From positions 5,287,501 to 5,351,500 of the forward strand of contig OU015675.1 in the NCBI GenBank assembly GCA_907165275.2: a stretch of 64,000 nt of DNA, given 5' to 3'. The stretch is from Zygaena filipendulae. Taxonomy: Eukaryota > Arthropoda > Insecta > Lepidoptera > Zygaenidae. Of this stretch, positions 31,734 through 42,857 are shown piece after piece. The notes under the pieces are model-generated. The model was not told where the DNA came from, made no database searches, and saw nothing but the letters and a program-made list of their open reading frames with translations. The position numbers were made by a program, and so were the translations under genes. Position 1 is the stretch's first letter; each line of letters opens with the position of its first letter.

Positions 31734-32026
31734 CAGTACTTAATTACCATTGTAATAAGATCTAATGATTTTACCTCGTTATAGTATAGAATATACATAT
31801 GTAGATGGTAGTAAGTAACCAGTATAGTAGTAAATAACTAAACCGATTGAGGATATACATAACTGTTTCGAATTATTATTATGTGACTCATTATAGATAC
31901 GGCGTAATACCTAGTTTTATTATTTCAATAATAAATATACATTAATTTGTCGTTCACTTTATTCTAAGGTTTGACGAAACCAGACGTTCTATGTATAAAT
32001 TTAATAGTGCATTTTAATTGTTTAAC
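31734..32026 (+). promoter_or_regulatory. Presumed attacin-like promoter and 5' UTR
   Basis: Non-repetitive sequence between a MITE and the start codon. A TATAAAT (31994-32000) is only 27 bp from the ATG, too close for a normal leader. An AT-rich TATA-like stretch near 31930 with a TTCACTT initiator-like motif near 31954 is an alternative. I see no good NF-kB (Relish) decamer here, which is notable for an attacin. Confidence 0.3.
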
Positions 32027-32397
32027 ATGAAAATTATCCAAGCTATTTGTGTTGGGTTGCTTTTAACTACGGCTATTTGTGGAAGCGTTAAAGGATCGGT
32101 CATACGTTATGGAAATGATTACATCATTGATGATCGTCCTAAAGTGATTAGACATTATTATTACGATGACATCGACAGTGTATTTGGTGATCAAAATCAG
32201 GCTATTGCATTTGCTTCGAATAGAGCCAAAAGAGAAGTGGAAATTTCCAAAAATACTGACGACACATACAAAGTGCAAGCTAGAAGAGATTTCCATATAG
32301 ATGCCAATAGAAATTTGAGGGTCAACAGTTTTATTGATGGATTAAAAGCGGGTGGTGTATACGACACAATACATGGAAATGTTGATTATTCTAATCT
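32027..32397 (+). CDS. Attacin-like exon 1: signal, propeptide, N domain
   Basis: Encodes residues 1-123 plus two bases of codon 124. It contains the signal peptide, the RYGNDYIIDD...DDIDSVFG acidic propeptide, RAKR, and the N-terminal domain ending HGNVDYSNL. Donor GTAAGT at 32398. Confidence 0.9.
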
Positions 32398-35300
32398 GTA
32401 AGTAGTATTTTCCATGTTGAATAATTCTTACTGTTATCAATGCGAAAGTGAGTTCGTTTGTTTGTTTCTAATGCTTTTAGTAAAGGCTTTACTGATATTC
32501 ATGAAATTTTGCATTCAGGGGTACAGAAAAGGACATTGGGTATCTATAGTACGGGAGATACCGATGCTAATTCGGGAGCGACTCGAGCGTCGTTGGGACC
32601 TATTGGGTTTTGAAGATTAGGAGATATAAACAAAATAAGGTCATATGATATTTTTTCATTCACCGGTGGGTTTAGCTTCTACAGGCTTTCAAAAATGTAA
32701 AAAAAAATATTAAAATGGAAATACTCGAGCGCGTCAGATATTGTAGTTTAGATACTCCAAGGTGTCTCTGATATCGAAAATATATTCATCTGCCGATTTG
32801 CGTGGTGGGGGTGGCCATCCGGAAGTGGAGAAAATGAAAAAAAAAAAACATTTACTCCAGCGCGTCAGATATTCAAAGGGGATGTTAAGTGAGCCCTAAA
32901 AATGCTCCCCTTCGAAAATCTGCCAATTTGGAGGTGACGCAAGGTAGTAGCGAATTTTTGAAAATGCAAAAAAAAATCTCAATTTTGAAATACTCGAGCG
33001 TGTCAGATTATTTTACAGAAGGTTCAGCTTGCACTCCAAGTTATGTTGGCTTAAAATCTGACAATAATTTTGAGGGGTATTATTAATCTGACTGCTAGAA
33101 ACAAAAATTATGATTTATTTTTAAGATTTTTTTTTTTCTTTCTAACGTGTAAGTTTAATAACTTTATGAGCTATTTCTTGTTCACAAGAAACACACTTTA
33201 TATTTCTATGAAATATGTAAAAGCTCACAAAATATTATTCACAAAACTAACTTTAAAGCACAAACAAGCCAGAGCGTTTTACATATAATAACATGAACGC
33301 GTTGTTTTGTGATGAGCTTTATTATATAATATATATAATTACATTAAAGTGAAAGGTTATAGGTGAACCTATAGTTTGATGTAATACTTACCTTAACTTA
33401 TTTTAATATGTATTTTAACCGACCAAAAAAAGTTATAATTTGACACGTTTAGCGCCGTGATATACTGTGATGACGTTATGGCGACGGAAAGTAGTGTGAG
33501 GACGGTGCGAGAGAGTGAGAGATAGAGAAAAAGTAAAAGAGAAAGAAAGACAGAGATATGAATAGGTACATGTTTCACTGCAGCTGCTCGTTCGATTCGA
33601 AGACGATTTTTGTTTCTTCGGCTTATGAAAATCGGCAGATTATATTTTTCCCGCTATCCTTGAGTTATTTACTTTAAAATAAAAAATAAATCAACTGCGC
33701 TCGAGAATGTCGAAGTTGCGTTTTTTTTTTGCAAGTTTGTGATCCTCTAACTCCCTTACGTCACGTTCAAATGGTCAGATTATTCATATACATACTTCTC
33801 ACTATGTAATTAACCCACCATATCTTAATCTGACGCGCTCGAGTATTTCGAGTTATCGATTTTTTTTTACTAATCTGATCGGTTATTCTAGACGCACCCA
33901 CCAGTGTAGAGGGCCTATATTTGGTGGAGGTACTCAACATGGTGCAAGGTACCCCCCTTATGTTCATCTGACGCGCTTTAGCTAATCCACAAATCCCCTC
34001 TTGGCGGTCCGTACTACTACTTTTAACCCGGGATCCCGGATCACTAAAATTTATGCGGCTGAAACGGGGGGTACAGCTAGTAGTAATAATATATCCAGAC
34101 ACAATGACATAGTAACAGAACCGTTTGGTGTAGAAGTGACGATACGCTTGGTGTCGTGGGTTCGATTCGCGCATCAGGGTAAAGAGTTATGTGATTAACA
34201 ATAATGTTTATCTTGAATCTGGGTGTTTAGTGCTGGACATCGAATCAAACAAAGAAGCATTTCGTGACGAGACCACAATAAAATAAGATTATGATATTTT
34301 CATATCGGCGATGGTATTTAAAAATAAAAATTAACTAAAATGATTGGAAATCGGTTAAAAAAACAATCTGGTTCATAAAATCTAGTCAATGAGTTACCTG
34401 AAGAAACAGTAATTATAATAAATCGGCTGGTATATTAACGAAAGATATTCGAATAAAAATAAAATTAGTATTCCTACAGGAAATTGTAACAAATAAACAA
34501 GCTGATAATACAGTAGTAATAAATACAACAATAGGTATTATTATTTTCATTTAAAATAGCTTATTGCCGTTATTTTACTCTCGCGAATTCCGGAATTCTC
34601 TCGTGAACTTTGTTTACGATTGAAAAGTATAAAATCTATATAATCTATAAGTATATAATCTATAAAATAAGCAGTGATAGCATTTTTCTCTTGAAATTAT
34701 GAGTTCCCAACAATCAGAAAACAGTGTAAATATTTAACATTTATGACTGATCTATTAATTTTTTTTAGATATTTTGCTAGACAAGTGTTATCTAATATGT
34801 ACGGATATATTTCAGAAATGGAAACGGTCTCAGTCTATCAGCTGAGAATGCCAAAGATGTGGCTACTAAATTGACAGCCAATAGTCAGTTTAACATTTTT
34901 AAAACACCAGAGAGAAGTCTAGACGCCAAAGGATTTTTAGAAAGAGATTTTCACACGAAACTGGGTGATGATTATACTAAGTTTGGTACAATTGTTGATT
35001 TTAATACAGTGTAAGTATTCTAAGGTACATATAATAATAATAATATAATAATAAGTTTTTATTAAAGGCAAAAGAACCCAATCTACACAATAAAAGTGTC
35101 ACAACATACATAATACACATACACAATATAAGCTTATCAACTATCTGGGAATGTTAAAAAACTATTCCCAGGTGTCTTGGTCAACATACTAACTATTTTT
35201 TATTACTATTTTGATGCACAGATAGCCAATATCTAAATATATTGCTGGACATTCCATCGCAAACCACCCGAAGGATGCCGTTGCTAGACGCCCGGAGTCT

Positions 35301-38300
35301 CTCCCAAAAAGAAGCTACTCTTTTCCTCATCACAGCAAAGAAATCAGGCACTCCCGATTCGGCAAACATATTCGAGGCACTACAGTATCTAGGCAGACCC
35401 ATCAGTATGCGAAAAGCATCATTATACTGCACGCGCATTGCCGTATAGGACTTTCTGAAAAAATTTGTCCAGAGTTGGCAAGTGTAAAAGCACTGGCAAT
35501 ACGCGTTAAACAGAACAATCTTGACGGATCTGCTGCATTTGCCAAATCTTCGGGCTAGCATATTGCATCGAATCGAGAGTGCCCTTCTCTCCCTCTCAAT
35601 ATCACAGTCATCCCTCAAATCCTCGGTAAGAACATGTCCTAGATATTTGAACTTTGTTACAACCCGAACTGCCGAGCCATCTAACAATACATCAGGTACC
35701 CTCTCCGGACCCTTGCCTGCTCGAAACACTAACATTTCAGATTTAGCTACATTATATTTCAGCCCATGAACATTAGCATAATGTTCACAGACTGAAAGCA
35801 ACCTCCTCAGTCCTTTGATAGACGGACTGAGAACCACCATGTCATCTGCGTAACTGAGACTGTTGACACACGTATTACCAATATGACATCCAATTTTTGT
35901 GGCTCTCAACTCCTCCATCAAGTCGTTAACGTAGATATTAAAAAGATCCGGAGAGGTAATACCCCCCTGACGTACTCCACAATCTAATCTATAAGGATTA
36001 GATGTTGCGTCGCCCCATTTAACACTGTTTATTTGGTTTCCGTACCAGTATCTCAACAGACCCACCACCTCTTTTGAAACATTAGACCGGTACAATTTCG
36101 CCCAGAGAATATCATAATTCACCAGGTCGAATGCCCGGCTCAAGTCCAAAAAACATGCGTAAACTGACGTTTTTCGACTCGTATAGTAGTCCACGGTATG
36201 CTTTAAACTAAGAATTGCCGAGTCTGTCGAGAGACCAGGGCGGAATCCAAATTGCGCATCATCAATCACAATATTTTTTTGCAGCTCGGGCTGTATCAAA
36301 CGTTCCAGAATTTTACCGGTGATGGTACCTAGTGAGATTGGACGGTAGTTGTTTGCTGAACCCAGATCACCGGTTTTATTTTTAACGATCGGTACCACTA
36401 TTGTCTTCATAAGGTCTTGTGGAAGATAAGAGTATTTAACGCACAAATTGAATAACCTACTTAGTTTAGAATGCACAACTTCACCTCCATATAGAATATG
36501 TTCTAAACTAAGGTCATCGTGGCCAGGTGATTTTCCACGCTTCATTTTTATAACTATATTGGTCACCTGTTCTGGAGTAAATTGCACCACAGGATTCTCG
36601 GTTGCTACTGAGGCATGACTGTGCTCGTCTCTCAGATCGGCGTTTATAGTTCGAGGGTGTATCTTGAACTGGTTTGCAAACATATTGGCTATCTGAGCAT
36701 GCTCATGCAACCCATTCACCTTTGTAGGTAGACCTGGCTTATAGGAAAACTTTTTTGTTTCCTTCCAAAACTTTGGAAAGTTACATTCTTTACGGTACAT
36801 AGCTAACATATCTAACTTTATAGACTCTTCATTTCTTTGACACCAGCGAAGTTTATTTTTAAAGTCCTTGCGGGTGGTGACCATTTTTTCATATATAGCC
36901 CCGTTAGAGGGCTTGCCTGTCATTATCCACGTTTCAAAATTTAATCTATAAACATGATGACTATTTTGCACGTGTAGATTCCAACCCGTGACTTGTTTTT
37001 TATACTGATTACATTTAGTATAACATCTCCCCACTGACTTTTTAGAACCTAATTGCATGATTTTAACAATTTGACTATACAAGTTATCTATAAAAATATA
37101 ATGCTCACTTAAATTATCACAGTACTTATAGTTTTCGCATTCATCACATTTAAAACTATCATTAATATTAGCTAAATATTTTTTACAGTAAGTGTAATAT
37201 ATGTCTATCTGCCTTTTATCCCTAACACCCCAGCGAATACTTGTCCTGCCAGCATGTAGGTCGTCAATGATAAGTCCCTGTGAAGCTTCATTGAAATTGC
37301 ACGTGACACATAACGGGAAATGGTCAGACCAAGCAACCTCATACAAAACTTTAACGGATACCATAGTCTTCCATGCCGCTTCAGTAGCAATGCAATGGTC
37401 CAACCATCGACGACTCCCATGGGCTTCACTTACAAAGGTGAATGTGTCTGAACTTATACCTAATTTTGCAACGTCAGCCCATATCCATTGCTGCTCGTCA
37501 CAAAAGCTTTTTAGTTCTTTACCAAAGCTAGCAGTGGGGTGCGCATTGAAATCCCCCAAAACATATACCGCTGAGACCTCCGATTCTTCGGTAAGGGCAC
37601 TTATACTTGCCAAACAATTCGTAAAATCGAGAAGATTATCCAACTCATCAGTGGGCATATACACATTAAAAACTAAAAAAGATCTTGAGTTTAAGGTTAT
37701 TCGAATTGCCATAATTCTATTTGTTGAACAATTTATTACCGAAACATCCGAAAATCGCGACTTACGCCACATAACGGCAAGACCACCGTATGGTCGGCCA
37801 CGCAATACACCCGCTGACACATCAACGGAAGAAATTGCTGCGCAATCAAATTCACTGTCTACGCTATATATAAAATCCAAATCATGCGGCAACAGCCAAG
37901 TTTCCTGTAAAACTAAAATATCTGCTTTTCGACATAGATCGCGAATATAATGGACCGATCTTTTAATTGATTTACAATTAAAAGATATTATGGTCGTATT
38001 ATTATTAGTATTAATGATGGGCGTATTATTCATATTTATTTGTTTATTAAAACGTTGTTAACAATATTACGTTCTCGAAAAACTCGATATTTAACACCTG
38101 CTGGCCAAAACTCACTTTTTAGAAAAAAATCTAATTTAATGCGCGATACTTTAATTTTAAAAGTAATATAAATCTGAGAATGACATAATTAACACATAAT
38201 AACCAAGCTATTGGTAAACTTGGTTTAATCTATATCTATACTTATAATAAAACTGTAGAGGTCAATTCTGTACATTGAATATATATTCAAAATTAATAAT

Positions 38301-41300
38301 GAAGGATGAATGGTTATCGATACTGATGCCAAAAATGCAATCAGAAAATTTTTTGTTTGTCTGTCTGTCTGTCTATTTGTATGTGCACGCATGAGCCAAA
38401 AACTACTGAAGGGATTTTAACTAAACTTGGTACGATTGTAGTCCATACTCCTGGGCAGGTTATATAGGCTTTGTAACATAACGCTAAGACACATAGAAGC
38501 TGAGCAGTGACGATAAATTTGAAGCAAGTCGGATGAAAATGCGCTTTCGAGCTCTTATCCTCGCATACATTTACTCAATCACGCAAAAACGGCAGAACGG
38601 ATATGAATGAAATTTGGCATGCACGTTTTCTGGATTACAGAGAAGGACATAGGGTACTTTTTATCTCGGAATTCTCGCGGGAACTCCGAAATTACCGCGG
38701 GTGAAACCGCGGGGCAAAGATAGTTATTAATAAAAAGGTTTAGTCTAGTGCTTTATTTATAGCAAAACTACAGAATTACTACTATCCAAACCATAGAACA
38801 GTTGCAAGGGACATCAACTGTTAAGTATTGAAAAAAAATCAGTGTCGCCGGGTGATTTTCGCACACAAAACTATGAACTATTCATTAACGTAACGAAATA
38901 ATAGTACATTGTTATCCTAGGGGTGAAAGTAACGTCTTAGTAAAGTAAAGTCTTTCTCCCGAGGATAACACTGTGCTTTTCATTACGAATGCAAGGAAAG
39001 TCAAAATAAAAAGAGGAATTAGCTAAAGAAAAAAATGAGTGAATTTTATTTTACGTAAATCAACCATTAGGTGTGCTACTGGCCAGTAAGTATGCCCCCT
39101 ATGACATAAAAAAAAAACTTGAGTTTCTGCAGTATCCAGCTGTCAGTTGAAAGCGATTCTCCCTAGGGCTGAAAAGTGTTACTTTCAACCCGCTTCTCAG
39201 GTAACTTCAGACCTACTTTCTGAGTATGAGTAATGAAAACGTTATTTGGTTACGTTTTCATTTAGTCACTGTTATCAAAATTCACAGTTTCGGAAATATT
39301 GTGTATAATAATGGGATTCCAGCAAAGCGAGTTTTTGAAAAGTTAGAGTACTTTCTCTAACATCCGTTGCAACCGTGGCGCTTCTGCCCCACCTACAACC
39401 TACATGTCCTCTCTAGTTAATTTATTTTCTCTGTGGTCCGAAACCTGCCGTATTGTATTGCGTGTTACTTTTTCTTAACAAAGACGTATTATCATGTTCT
39501 TATTTGAATAGATCTGGAAGCAACGCAAAACTGGCTTTGGAACACGATTCGTTACTTGGCAACAAAATCCAAGCGGGTGCCGACGTGATTCTTTACAAAA
39601 GTCCCGACAGTCTGCTCAACGGAAAAGCGTTTTGGACCAAAAACATACCTTTAGAAAACTCTAAAACTGCCACAGATTTATATGGTGGTAGTCTTAATTA
39701 TTTAAACAGGTAAGTGTTATTTTTGCCATAGAATTAAACCTAGTGTGAAAGTTTATGTAGATGCTGTGTTGATTATTTTAGCGACATCCAAAAAAGGAGG
39801 AGGTTCTCAATTCTGTTTTTTTTTTTTTACTACAATCAGAATCAAACACTTACAGATATCTGCAGGGCAATTATGCAATTATGTAACTTTTGTTGCTATC
39901 ATATTTCAGTTTCAACTGTTTCAATCAGAAAAATAGTGATTTTGTGATTAATTAACCATGTTTAGGCAGCTTCAACTTTTGAAGTATGTTTATTTTGGGT
40001 GATTGCTAGATGTTGTAGGTGTCAAAACGTGCAATTATTTTGATTGAAACCAAAAAAATTATAGAAACAAAAGTTACGTAATAGCCCCTCTAATTGTAAA
40101 TAATACACGTTTGTTGTAATAATATAATTGTTCATATCTACGCTTACAATCAGGCGAGATTATGGACAAATGTCTGACCAATCAGTTAATAAAAAAAAAA
40201 AAAAATATACGTTTAGCTTTAAGTAAAGGGTCTTTCAATAAGGACGGGTCGATTTTGACATGAAATAAAAAAGGCCGTGTGTGAGATTTTAACGATTTTT
40301 TTTTTTATTTGAAAGAGCTATATATGCCATTATGTGTGGAAAATCACATCGTTTAAATGTCCGCCGCGGCTTCTCACGGTGGCACGAATTCGAGTTGTCC
40401 AATGTTCAACAACTCTGCCGCATAGTTCGGGTTGAATTTCAGCGATAGCCTGAGCTATGTTGACTTTAAGGGCATCGGTCGATTGTGGCTTATTGGTATA
40501 GACCTGCGACTTAAGAAAACCCCACAAAAAAAAGTCTAAAGGTGATAAGTCGCAGGATCTCGGTGGCCAATTCACAATTCAATTTGAAGGACCACCTCGT
40601 CTGCCGTAAAATGGGCGCAATGCACGTAACGTTTGCACTAACGAACACTCATTTTGGTAATACATTTTTAACATTTGGACGTGTTGCTCAACCGTGTAAC
40701 TTGCCATGGTGATTTGGCATTACTAACTGAATAAAAAAATATAGGTTAGAAAGACGACGTTAAAACAACATGGCCGCCACAGGCTGCCAACATCGACCCG
40801 TCCCTATTGAAAGACCCTTTATTTGTTTATATTTACATTTATTTATGTATTAACAGAATACCTCATCGAAGTTTTGACCATTTGTGATTTTGACTATACA
40901 AACAGGGCAAGGTCGAACTTCGAAAAAAAAAAATGATTTTAGTTTAAAATAGCACTTAAGACAGCGGTTTTTGAAGTTATTTCTCTGTGAAGTGATGCAA
41001 CAGAATTGTATACGTATTACAGCACAATGCTCTTAATATAGAGACGATAGTGATGACCATCGATCAGTGCAACTATGTAACTTTTGTTGCTATGATTTAT
41101 CGATTTCAATCAGAAACCAGGCGGTTTAGAAATCGAAAGATTATAGTATGAAGTTACATAATAGCCCTGCAGGCGTATATTTCAACTTTTTCTTCTTAAC
41201 AGAAATGGAAACGTTGCTTCACTATCAGCACAGCACGTACCGAATTTGGGAGATCAGTTTTCCGCTGCGGCTAAACTCCACCTGTTTCACAATGAAAATC

Positions 41301-42857
41301 ACAACCTGGACGTTGATGGAAAGTTCACAAGAACGTTTCCAATGAACACCGCAAGTAATGGCTTCAACATCTATTCGGGTAACGTGGACTATCATTACAA
41401 GTAGGTGTTTTATCAATCATTCCGTCAATTACATGGTGGTAACGTTATTTTTAATTTTGTAACGATAATAAACCTACCGCGATTTCAATAAGACTCATTA
41501 TTCAATGCATAGGTACAGTTGTTAATATTTAATGGAACGTTAAACGCTATTTTTATGCCATGCAATATAAGTCTTTAATTCCATTGCTTAAGACTTAATA
41601 AATTATTATCGTTACAAAATTAAAATTAACGTTGCCCACCTCTACCGTTGAATCGGAGCCGTGCGTTTGGGATTGTGTTTTTGGTACGCGTGTTAACTGT
41701 TATGGGCAAGGAATGCTGTTGGTCATAGTGAATAAGGGCCCAGATGTAAATAGACGGAGTCTGTCGGCGTCTGCCACGGAACACATGTCTGGCACGCTCT
41801 GTAGATATAAACGGACCTCAAATCGGTTCGTTTGTATGAAGTGACACTGGTCTGAATCAGACCAGTGACACTTTCCGATATAATTTATTGTCTTATCTTC
41901 TAATATATATAAATCACGTGTCACGTTGTTTGTCCGCGATGGACTCCGAAACTACTGAACGGATTTTGATAAAATTTTGCAACCATTTATAATATGGTCC
42001 CACTTAAAAGATAGGATAGTTTTTTTCCCGGAATTCCCTCGGGAACTGATGGACATAGAGTACTTTTTTCCCGTAATCTCCGCGGGAACTCCGAAATTAC
42101 CGCGGATGAAATCGCGGGGGACAGCTAGTCTAATATATATAAATCACGTGTCACGTTGTTTGTCCGCGATGGACTCCGAAACTACTGAACGGATTTTGAT
42201 AAAATTTTGCAACCATTTATAATATGGTCCAACTTAAAAGATAGGATAGTTTTTATCCCGGAATTCCCTCGGGAACTGAAGGGCATAGAGTAAATTTTCC
42301 CACAACCTCCGCGGGAATTTCGAAATTACTGCGGATGAAATCGCGGGGGACAGCTAGTCTAATATATATAAATCACGTGTCACGTTGTTGGTCCGCGATG
42401 GACTCCGAAACTACTGAACGGATTTTGATAAAATTTTGCAACCGTTTATAATATGGTCCAAATTAAAAGATAGGATAGTTTTTATCCCGGAATTCCCTCG
42501 GGAACTGAAGGGCATAGAGTACTTTTTTCCCGCAACCTCCGCGGGAACTTCGAAATTACCGCGGATGAAATCGCGGGGGACAGCTAGTATGGACTATACT
42601 TTTGCTTTTGCGTTGTGTGATAGTGTCCAAAGATTATTTATTCTTACCATTTCAGGGATAGATTGGGAGTGAACCTTGGTATAGACCATTCAGATTTGAG
42701 CCAAAGAACTGACTACACCGCAATGGGAAATATGAACATCTTCCGCGACAAAGACACCAGTGTAAACCTCAATGTTGGTGCTACGAAGACATTGACTCCT
42801 TCCTACTCATCACCATTTGAACCGAACATTGGTATCACGTTTAGAAAAGATTTTTAG
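32027..42857 (+). CDS. Attacin-like protein with four G domains (5 exons)
   Basis: Secreted antimicrobial protein of the attacin family, which acts on Gram-negative outer membranes. Exons: 32027-32397, 34816-35010, 39512-39709, 41203-41400, 42656-42857. All junctions are GT-AG and every intron is phase 2. The coding length is 1,164 nt, giving 387 residues with no internal stop. Residues 1-24 or so form a signal peptide (LLLTTAICGSVKG). The propeptide is acidic and Tyr/Asp-rich, ending in the furin site RAKR (66-69). The N domain is 70-124. Four ~66-residue glycine/asparagine-rich repeats follow (125-189, 190-255, 256-321, 322-387). The last two match the usual attacin G1 and G2. Classical attacins have two G domains and a mature length near 185; here it is about 318. 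I chose the ATG at 32027 because the frame upstream opens only with TTG. The C-terminus (EPNIGITFRKDF) is attacin-typical. Family assignment is firm; activity is inferred. Confidence 0.88.
32438..32590 (+). mobile_element. Degenerate Helitron in intron 1
   Basis: Starts 'tcaatgcgaaagtgagttcg', retains 'atgaaattttgcattcaggg' and 'ggggtacagaaaaggacatt'. The 3' end is lost near the border of the following inverted-array repeat. Confidence 0.5.
32665..33990. mobile_element. Foldback-type repeat with ~135-bp subrepeats
   Basis: Three direct copies of CTCGAGCGCGTCAGAT-like motifs lie at 32724, 32855 and 32993, spaced 131 and 138 bp. They are mirrored by inverted copies near 33694 (diverged), 33828 and 33966, spaced 134 and 138 bp. 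Between motifs the units share poly-A and 'gcgaatttttgaaaatg'-like sequence. The unique centre, about 33020-33690, has no ORF. Arms built from tandem subrepeats are typical of Foldback-like DNA elements; superfamily unknown. Boundaries are approximate. Confidence 0.6.
34019..34079 (+). mobile_element. Helitron 3' relic in intron 1
   Basis: 'tttatgcggctgaaacgggg' hairpin remnant followed by gtacagCTAG (34076-34079). Confidence 0.5.
34118..34265 (+). repeat. tRNA-like SINE fragment
   Basis: A-box-like tttggtgtagaagtg and a perfect B-box GGTTCGATTCG about 30 bp later. The body beyond 34190 differs from the main SINE family here, so this is a second SINE type. Confidence 0.5.
34266..34815. other. 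3' part of attacin-like intron 1
   Basis: AT-rich intron sequence without a recognisable repeat. It ends with the acceptor ATTTCAG at 34815, preceded by a T-rich run 'attttttttagatattttgc' some 50 bp upstream. Confidence 0.45.
34816..35010 (+). CDS. Attacin-like exon 2: extra G repeat 1
   Basis: 195 nt (65 codons), phase 2 at both ends. It encodes NGNGLSLSAENAKDVATK through FGTIVDFNTV. It aligns with exon 4 (NGNVASLSAQHVPNLGDQ) from the first residue, showing that it is a G-domain duplicate. Donor GTAAGT. Confidence 0.88.
35028..38234 (-). mobile_element. Non-LTR retrotransposon (LINE), antisense in intron 2
   Basis: Minus-strand insertion with one long intact ORF and a short 3' UTR ending in an AATAAA-like signal. 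The tail is a (TTA)n microsatellite (about 35028-35054 on the + strand as ATT/ATA repeats). No ORF1 is visible upstream, and the 5' limit is placed at the next element (38235) for want of a target duplication, so the copy may be 5'-truncated. It accounts for about 70% of intron 2. Confidence 0.8.
35193..38033 (-). CDS. LINE ORF2: endonuclease-reverse transcriptase
   Basis: 946 residues, uninterrupted. The N-terminal half is an APE-type endonuclease: SFNCKS (about 17-22), LQETW with the catalytic Glu at 44, GDFNAHP (160-166), WLDH (210-213) and SDH (236-238). The reverse transcriptase follows at about 485-800: RGKSPGHDDL (499-508), FGFRPG (595-600), FLDLSRAFD with Asp 630, VRQGGITSP, and the catalytic YADD (728-731). 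The thumb region has FKYLGHVL. A C-terminal domain of about 150 residues is retained, with no RNase H. It nicks target DNA and copies its RNA in place. APE plus RT architecture fits the Jockey/CR1/L2-like groups; I cannot fix the clade. An intact frame argues for a recent insertion. It is not a host gene. Confidence 0.88.
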   Translation of the reverse strand: MNNTPIINTNNNTTIISFNCKSIKRSVHYIRDLCRKADILVLQETWLLPHDLDFIYSVDSEFDCAAISSVDVSAGVLRGRPYGGLAVMWRKSRFSDVSVINCSTNRIMAIRITLNSRSFLVFNVYMPTDELDNLLDFTNCLASISALTEESEVSAVYVLGDFNAHPTASFGKELKSFCDEQQWIWADVAKLGISSDTFTFVSEAHGSRRWLDHCIATEAAWKTMVSVKVLYEVAWSDHFPLCVTCNFNEASQGLIIDDLHAGRTSIRWGVRDKRQIDIYYTYCKKYLANINDSFKCDECENYKYCDNLSEHYIFIDNLYSQIVKIMQLGSKKSVGRCYTKCNQYKKQVTGWNLHVQNSHHVYRLNFETWIMTGKPSNGAIYEKMVTTRKDFKNKLRWCQRNEESIKLDMLAMYRKECNFPKFWKETKKFSYKPGLPTKVNGLHEHAQIANMFANQFKIHPRTINADLRDEHSHASVATENPVVQFTPEQVTNIVIKMKRGKSPGHDDLSLEHILYGGEVVHSKLSRLFNLCVKYSYLPQDLMKTIVVPIVKNKTGDLGSANNYRPISLGTITGKILERLIQPELQKNIVIDDAQFGFRPGLSTDSAILSLKHTVDYYTSRKTSVYACFLDLSRAFDLVNYDILWAKLYRSNVSKEVVGLLRYWYGNQINSVKWGDATSNPYRLDCGVRQGGITSPDLFNIYVNDLMEELRATKIGCHIGNTCVNSLSYADDMVVLSPSIKGLRRLLSVCEHYANVHGLKYNVAKSEMLVFRAGKGPERVPDVLLDGSAVRVVTKFKYLGHVLTEDLRDDCDIERERRALSIRCNMLARRFGKCSRSVKIVLFNAYCQCFYTCQLWTNFFRKSYTAMRVQYNDAFRILMGLPRYCSASNMFAESGVPDFFAVMRKRVASFWERLRASSNGILRVVCDGMSSNIFRYWLSVHQNSNKK
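38235..38723 (+). mobile_element. Helitron, long subfamily, uninterrupted
   Basis: TC at 38235, 'cttataataaaactgtagag', 'ttctgtacattgaatatata', (CTGT)n, 'gcagtgacgataaatttgaa', hairpin 'ccgcgggtgaaaccgcgg', terminal ATAG|T. At about 489 bp it is the empty-site counterpart of the MITE-interrupted copy at 18562-19329. It lies immediately upstream of the LINE in intron 2. Confidence 0.8.
38907..39240 (+). repeat. Unclassified ~600-bp repeat, internally deleted
   Basis: Matches both ends of the 57281-57895 copy ('agtacattgttatcctaggg' at the left, 'aacccgcttctcaggtaact' at the right). It has lost the middle and gained a retroelement tail at about 39062-39115. Confidence 0.6.
39062..39115 (+). 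repeat. Poly(A)-ended retroelement tail
   Basis: 'gtatgccccctatgacataa' followed by A10. The same ending (gtttgccccctatgacatta) occurs at 56740-56775. It is inserted within the surrounding repeat, so it is younger. Confidence 0.5.
39512..39709 (+). CDS. Attacin-like exon 3: extra G repeat 2
   Basis: 198 nt (66 codons), phase 2 at both ends. It encodes SGSNAKLALEHDSLLGNK through GGSLNYLNR. It is the most diverged of the four repeats, with the G/N-rich start reduced to SGSN, but the LG.(K/Q), LY/LF and terminal hydrophobic-(D/N)-Y pattern is kept. Acceptor TTGAATAG, donor GTAAGT. Confidence 0.85.
39863..40089 (+). mobile_element. TIR MITE (CAGGGCAATT), copy B, intron 3
   Basis: 227 bp, ends CAGGGCAATTATG and TAATAGCCCCT. 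The interior matches copy A in 'ttgttgctatcatatttcag' and 'cttttgaagtatgtttattt'. Confidence 0.75.
40226..40819 (-). mobile_element. Tc1/mariner-like element, internally deleted
   Basis: 594 bp with ~28-bp inverted ends (AAGGGTCTTTCAATARGGAC...) and a TA target duplication (40224-40225 and 40820-40821). On the minus strand the N-terminal helix-turn-helix segment survives (MASYTVEQHVQMLKMYYQNE to FYGRRGGPSN, about 40580-40705). It is joined directly to the C-terminal catalytic segment; the central part with the first catalytic Asp residues is missing. A dead but trans-mobilisable derivative. Confidence 0.85.
40330..40575 (-). pseudogene. Transposase C-terminal remnant (IS630/Tc1/mariner type)
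   Basis: Encodes NWPPRSCDLSPLDFFLWGFL, the WPxRSPDLxPxDFFLWG motif that carries the final catalytic acidic residue in IS630/Tc1/mariner transposases. It continues to GGHLNDVIFHT and a stop. Upstream coding is cut by the internal deletion and an in-frame stop after GRRGGPSN. Confidence 0.85.
41065..41169 (+). mobile_element. TIR MITE (CAGGGCAATT), copy C, deletion derivative
   Basis: 105 bp keeping both ends (CAGTGCAACTATGTAAC and GTTACATAATAGCCCTG) with most of the interior deleted. It ends 33 bp before exon 4, so it abuts that exon's polypyrimidine tract. Confidence 0.7.
41203..41400 (+). CDS. Attacin-like exon 4: canonical G1 domain
   Basis: 198 nt, phase 2 at both ends. NGNVASLSAQHVPNLGDQFS through SGNVDYHYK is the best match to the attacin G1 consensus, including HxPxxGDx, the LFHN(E)NH segment and the terminal DYHYK. 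Acceptor TTCTTCTTAACAG. Confidence 0.92.
41899..42587 (+). mobile_element. Tandem triplet of Helitrons in intron 4
   Basis: Three nearly identical units, 41899-42128 (230 bp), 42129-42357 (229 bp) and 42358-42587 (230 bp), each run from TCTAATATATATAAATCACG to acagCTAG with no bases between them. Each has hairpin 'ccgcggatgaaatcgcgg'. A mirrored copy of the subfamily is at 46812-47052. Head-to-tail arrays without spacers are expected of rolling-circle transposition. The array ends 68 bp before exon 5. Confidence 0.88.
42656..42857 (+). CDS. Attacin-like exon 5: canonical G2 domain and stop
   Basis: Encodes DRLGVNLGIDHSDLSQRTDY through SSPFEPNIGITFRKDF and a TAG at 42855-42857. The W/F-EPN-x-G-(F/I)-x-(L/F) ending is the attacin C-terminus. 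Acceptor TTACCATTTCAG. Confidence 0.92.

Follow-up and report, generated by a model that had tools for sequence, protein, structure and literature searches.

An attacin-family gene of Zygaena filipendulae with four Attacin_C modules, probably three of type G1 and one of type G2

How many G modules can one attacin, a secreted protein that acts against bacteria, carry, and what might a gene with more than the usual two encode? Attacins elsewhere, as described in PMC7924397, have G1 in exon 2 and G2 in exon 3, and their mature part is about 190 amino acids (aa) long. The question is raised by an attacin-like gene of the lepidopteran Zygaena filipendulae, located on the plus strand of contig OU015675.1 (assembly GCA_907165275.2). 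We analysed the 64-kb stretch at positions 5,287,501 to 5,351,500, called the window below; its G+C content is 35%. A first-pass annotation had proposed a five-exon gene in which two additional G modules precede an ordinary G1 and G2. Reading of the splice sites in the DNA confirmed the gene model: all exon borders are GT-AG, all four introns are of phase 2, and the spliced frame runs from ATG to TAG without an internal stop and encodes 387 aa. Exons 2–4 are each symmetric (phase 2-2), so the reading frame survives when one of them is duplicated or skipped. The N-terminus of the protein is hydrophobic and signal-like. The RXXR propeptide that had been claimed is present as the motif RAKR at residues 66–69; the predicted cleavage there would leave 318 aa, and the mature product would indeed be longer than that of known attacins, by about two thirds. 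A TATA-like site at 31994 lies 33 bp before the ATG, which would be too close for a normal 5' leader if the site is used.

Using a profile search, we showed that the whole protein matches Attacin_C with 137.8 bits in four separate stretches. The curated cut-off of this profile is 28.8 bits. Exon 5 alone exceeds it (41.7 bits), exon 4 alone scores 27.3 bits, and exons 2 and 3 alone stay below it (20.6 and 20.8 bits). When joined, exons 2 and 3 score 52.4 bits, above the cut-off, and exons 4 and 5 score 86.6 bits and cover positions 1–120, which is the whole profile. Alignment of exons 2 and 3 to Attacin_C had been set beforehand as the check on the proposed four G-type modules, and it was obtained. 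The gene belongs to the attacin family and has four Attacin_C modules. The N domain of the annotation was not recognised by Pfam, since the Attacin_N profile had no match in the spliced protein. According to a view cited in PMC7712779, Attacin_N is an artefact. Weak Pfam matches to PPS_PS, DUF2188 and CreS_N were all under the cut-off and were set aside.

It turned out that exons 2, 3 and 4 resemble one another. Their pairwise similarity scores had z values of 6.5, 10.0 and 12.9, and 0 of 1000 shuffles reached the score in each pair. The scores of exon 5 against exons 2, 3 and 4 were reached by 45, 520 and 112 of 1000 shuffles, that is, there is no clear pairwise likeness. In phmmer searches of the window translated in six frames (2,940 fragments), exon 4 found exon 3 (E 1.3e-4) and exon 2 (E 1.7e-4), the next fragment having an E of 4.5. 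Exons 2 and 3 as queries found exon 4 at 8.3e-4 and 3.7e-4, and they found each other weakly (E 0.14 and 0.10). Because exons 2–4 are mutually alike and exon 5 is different, we read the protein as signal-pro-N-G1-G1-G1-G2. Probably, a symmetric exon encoding one G1 module underwent two duplications in the only attacin-family gene detected in this genome, which would have enlarged the attacin and lengthened its beta-sheet. Exons 2 and 3 are additional G modules, as had been proposed, but the array is better described as a tripled G1 (exons 2–4) plus one G2.

One result blurs this assignment. When searched singly, exons 2 and 3 cover the first half of Attacin_C, but exon 4 falls on the second half (profile positions 53–102); joined to exon 5, it aligns to the first half instead. 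Identity among exons 2–4 is low, 21–25% in pairwise alignments and 17–25% in the multiple alignment, meaning that either the duplications happened long ago or the modules evolve rapidly. Between the codons of exons 3 and 4, third-position-only differences number 28 versus 8 at the second position only (p 0.0006), which suggests constraint; the same test was not significant for the pairs with exon 2 (p 0.08 and 0.29). The N segment is perhaps itself a distant module. Its weak likeness to exon 4 was reached by 10 of 1000 shuffles (250, 359 and 395 for exons 2, 3 and 5), and a model of exons 2–4 gave 6.7 bits to N and 6.6 bits to exon 5, each score being reached by 2 of 1000 shuffles.

To assess copy number, we searched the genome (365.9 Mb in 56 contigs) with Attacin_C at E<=10. 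The search scores the best candidates only, and a very divergent attacin could escape it. Four matches from four candidates were obtained, all of them exons 2–5 of this gene (exon 5, 40.7 bits; exon 4, 26.4; exon 2, 18.3; exon 3, 18.1). Exons 2 and 3 are weak by genome-wide E-value (0.62 and 0.72), yet both sit inside this gene with the correct frame and phase. The spliced protein gave five matches from six candidates, its own five exons. A lysozyme control was found in 7 places from 10 candidates, as exon pieces. Four lysozyme-type pieces lie close together (C7:8165631-8171957), and one match (C54:3456990-3457343) is inside a 1443-aa open frame. At the sensitivity of these tools, no second attacin was found in the genome with the profile or the spliced protein, nor in the window, nor in 200 kb of flanks, where tblastn had no match at E<=1 and the module model reached an E of 0.46 at best. 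This suggests that the gene is the species' only attacin. A single attacin is not unusual: one was found in the transcriptome of Ostrinia furnacalis (PMC3895045). The Gloverin profile had no candidate in six frames of the genome, which does not by itself show absence.

RAKR is the sole R-X-K/R-R site in the 387-aa protein. Other basic sites are found inside N, namely a loose RXXR (residue 95) and a dibasic pair (residue 86), and close to the C-terminus, where a second dibasic pair lies at 384. With no further R-X-K/R-R site downstream of RAKR, the product is more likely to be one long chain than a polyprotein. A multipeptide precursor was rejected, since a motif scan of the protein found neither R-X-K/R-R nor dibasic sites at the module borders. 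Ant hymenoptaecin precursors, as reported in PMC3415428, also carry repeated antimicrobial peptide (AMP) domains behind a single signal and pro-sequence; however, their repeats share a single exon, with EAEP and RR processing sites at the flanks, whereas here each module has its own exon and such RR sites are absent between modules. The protein would be secreted and then cleaved after RAKR, and the mature part would remain one chain of ~35 kDa with about 16 or more strands.

AlphaFold2 models of single exons were consistent with such strands. Exon 4 was predicted as a four-stranded beta-meander (strands 4-12, 16-30, 33-46 and 56-65) with a predicted local distance difference test (pLDDT) score of 77.3, and so was exon 2 (strands 4-12, 15-29, 33-45 and 53-64; pLDDT 86.7). 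The introns fall in turns between these predicted modules. The annotation had suggested an extended glycine-rich barrel. For the extended barrel, structural support is limited to these two modules, predicted singly; the glycine-rich character is not clearly supported, as glycine makes up 25 of the 318 mature residues (7.9%). The net charge is -4. Foldseek with the exon 4 model returned 520 matches at E<=10, none of them at E<=1e-3, the top one being an actin-capping protein. The Hermetia attacin Hill_BB_C10074, also a predicted antiparallel beta-sheet, is described in PMC10690985 as having a single sheet of five strands per chain, and a homotrimer is predicted to form a 12-strand barrel. Two of the ten PDB neighbours listed for it (1wzn and 2w4y) are among the 50 matches listed for the exon 2 model. 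In the Zygaena protein, more of the sheet or barrel would be covalently linked, and this may lessen the dependence on several attacin chains assembling. Like other attacins, the chain may act on the envelope of Gram-negative bacteria, and the extra modules might alter binding to lipopolysaccharide or membranes. A fuller model is that four covalently linked beta-meander modules form a sheet or barrel of at least 16 strands in one chain, and that the species' only attacin thereby does by itself what oligomers are predicted to do in other attacins, with in-frame exon skipping tuning the strand number. This model is tentative, and we consider it conceivable rather than probable.

Several features speak against an ordinary attacin: the low glycine content, the net charge and the unmatched Attacin_N profile. 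In place of the canonical N-G1-G2 with two G domains and about 190 mature residues, there are four modules and 318 residues. The main rival explanation is that the gene became an AMP-derived repeat protein which kept secretion, lost killing and took another role in the blood or in development. The precedent is lepidopteran X-tox, which consists of tandem defensin repeats; according to PMC2728511, Spod-11-tox is secreted, is not cut into active defensins and had no antimicrobial activity once purified. A tandem array of AMP domains, one predicted secreted chain and no sign of cleavage between repeats are common to both, and the low glycine and negative charge would also fit. The promoter fits in part: two stricter kB patterns gave no site within 1 kb (few are expected by chance anyway), a loose pattern gave 1 match there versus 2.95 expected, and a strict match is present at -1017 on the other strand. 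However, such pattern counts are weak evidence in either direction, attacins with a net charge as low as -3 exist (PMC7924397), and the species would be left without any detected classical attacin. The X-tox domain described in PMC2728511 is unrelated, cysteine-stabilised and cationic, and X-tox has lost antimicrobial activity. X-tox membership proper was rejected, since the mature part contains no cysteine and no cysteine-stabilised defensin motifs. We regard an X-tox-like fate as possible without expecting it. As a moth gene, this one would be a second example, next to X-tox, of an AMP that became a repeat protein.

It is also possible, if unlikely, that the tripled G1 is mostly spliced out. 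Skipping of exon 2, exon 3 or both would yield modular isoforms, with an ordinary N-G1-G2 protein as the main product and the longer forms as minor ones. The phase 2 introns allow in-frame omission of any subset of exons 2–4, exons 4 and 5 by themselves cover the whole Attacin_C profile, and the exon 3 acceptor (gaatag) has, by eye, the poorest pyrimidine run among the four acceptors. However, exons 2 and 3 have the donor gtaagt, versus gtaggt at exon 4.

Two genes could have been read as one, exons 2 and 3 belonging to another attacin gene whose first or last exon was missed. This has happened with Blattella C0J52_26498, a long protein with several Attacin_C-like regions that was revised into separate genes (PMC7712779). 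Here it is very improbable: the genome yields only a single copy each of exon 1 and the G2 exon, the searches of the 200-kb flanks described above gave no second attacin, and the phases fit throughout the five exons. Two M-starting open stretches with a hydrophobic run (44 and 36 aa) lie between exons 2 and 3, and neither is established as an exon. Exons 2 and 3 as recent, intact-looking but disused relics are equally hard to credit: their profile scores are the lowest, and a retrotransposon open reading frame that appears intact sits in the large intron 2, but they keep stop-free frames of 65 and 66 codons, the correct phase and GT-AG on both sides.

We compared the gene with the attacins that PMC7924397 describes for Lepidoptera (signal, P domain with RXXR, N, G1 and G2). 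The signal-like start, RAKR, the Attacin_C modules, one exon per G module and the absence of cysteine in the mature part are alike. The differences are three G1-type modules instead of one, the length of the mature part, the lack of a clear glycine richness and the unmatched Attacin_N profile. Blattellicins (PMC7712779) are also attacin-derived and longer than ordinary attacin-like proteins, but their length is due to a Gln/Glu-rich stretch ahead of the C-terminal Attacin_C domain. Protein searches with the whole protein, residues 255-387 and residues 70-254 (4298, 55 and 597 word-sharing candidates) gave nothing at E<=1e-3; a viral scan gave 17 pattern matches and no relative, and PDB sequences gave nothing at E<=10. 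As these searches returned no attacin of any kind, they are uninformative on the frequency of the architecture. A literature search for attacins with three, four, multiple, additional or extra G domains matched only a gelsolin paper; it did not extend to subscription papers and sequence-database entries, and no claim to a first report of the architecture is made.

In the proposal cited in PMC7924397, a single ancestral G exon gave rise to attacins, sarcotoxin II and diptericins, diptericin having one G and attacin two. The Zygaena gene extends this series to four, with the same type of exon border and the same phase. It offers a natural test of whether the number of modules sets activity. If the species really has no other attacin, as the genome search suggests, the gene is no spare copy. 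The coordinates are given in Table 1.

Table 1. Exons and introns of the attacin-like gene (positions in the window)
Feature	Position	Strand	Remarks
Exon 1	32027..32397	+	Signal-like N-terminus, propeptide ending in RAKR, first 54 mature residues (N segment); GT donor, phase 2
Intron 1	32398..34815	+	2418 bp, phase 2
Exon 2, G1-type module 1 (G1a)	34816..35010	+	Attacin_C match; 65-codon stop-free frame
Intron 2	35011..39511	+	4501 bp, phase 2; contains opposite-strand non-LTR retrotransposon open reading frame
Exon 3, G1-type module 2 (G1b)	39512..39709	+	Attacin_C match; 66-codon stop-free frame
Intron 3	39710..41202	+	1493 bp, phase 2
Exon 4, G1-type module 3 (G1c), probably the ordinary G1	41203..41400	+	Attacin_C match
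Intron 4	41401..42655	+	1255 bp, phase 2; contains 230-bp unit in three tandem copies
Exon 5, terminal G2 module and stop codon	42656..42857	+	Attacin_C match, above cut-off alone
LTR, long terminal repeat.

The reading frame of exon 3 is open for ~95 bases further upstream into the intron (39417-39713, +). The retrotransposon in intron 2 (35193-38057, minus strand, opposite to the gene) is an open frame of 954 aa in which endonuclease and reverse transcriptase domains were recognised. Just outside the window, there is a 932-aa frame that, by eye, begins similarly. Among nine other long frames of the window, the retrotransposon frame was the only one with a Pfam match, and Rfam and tRNA scans of the window found nothing. 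The tandem copies in intron 4 occupy 41899-42588 and have 95% matches, and pieces related to the 230-bp unit occur at other places in the window.
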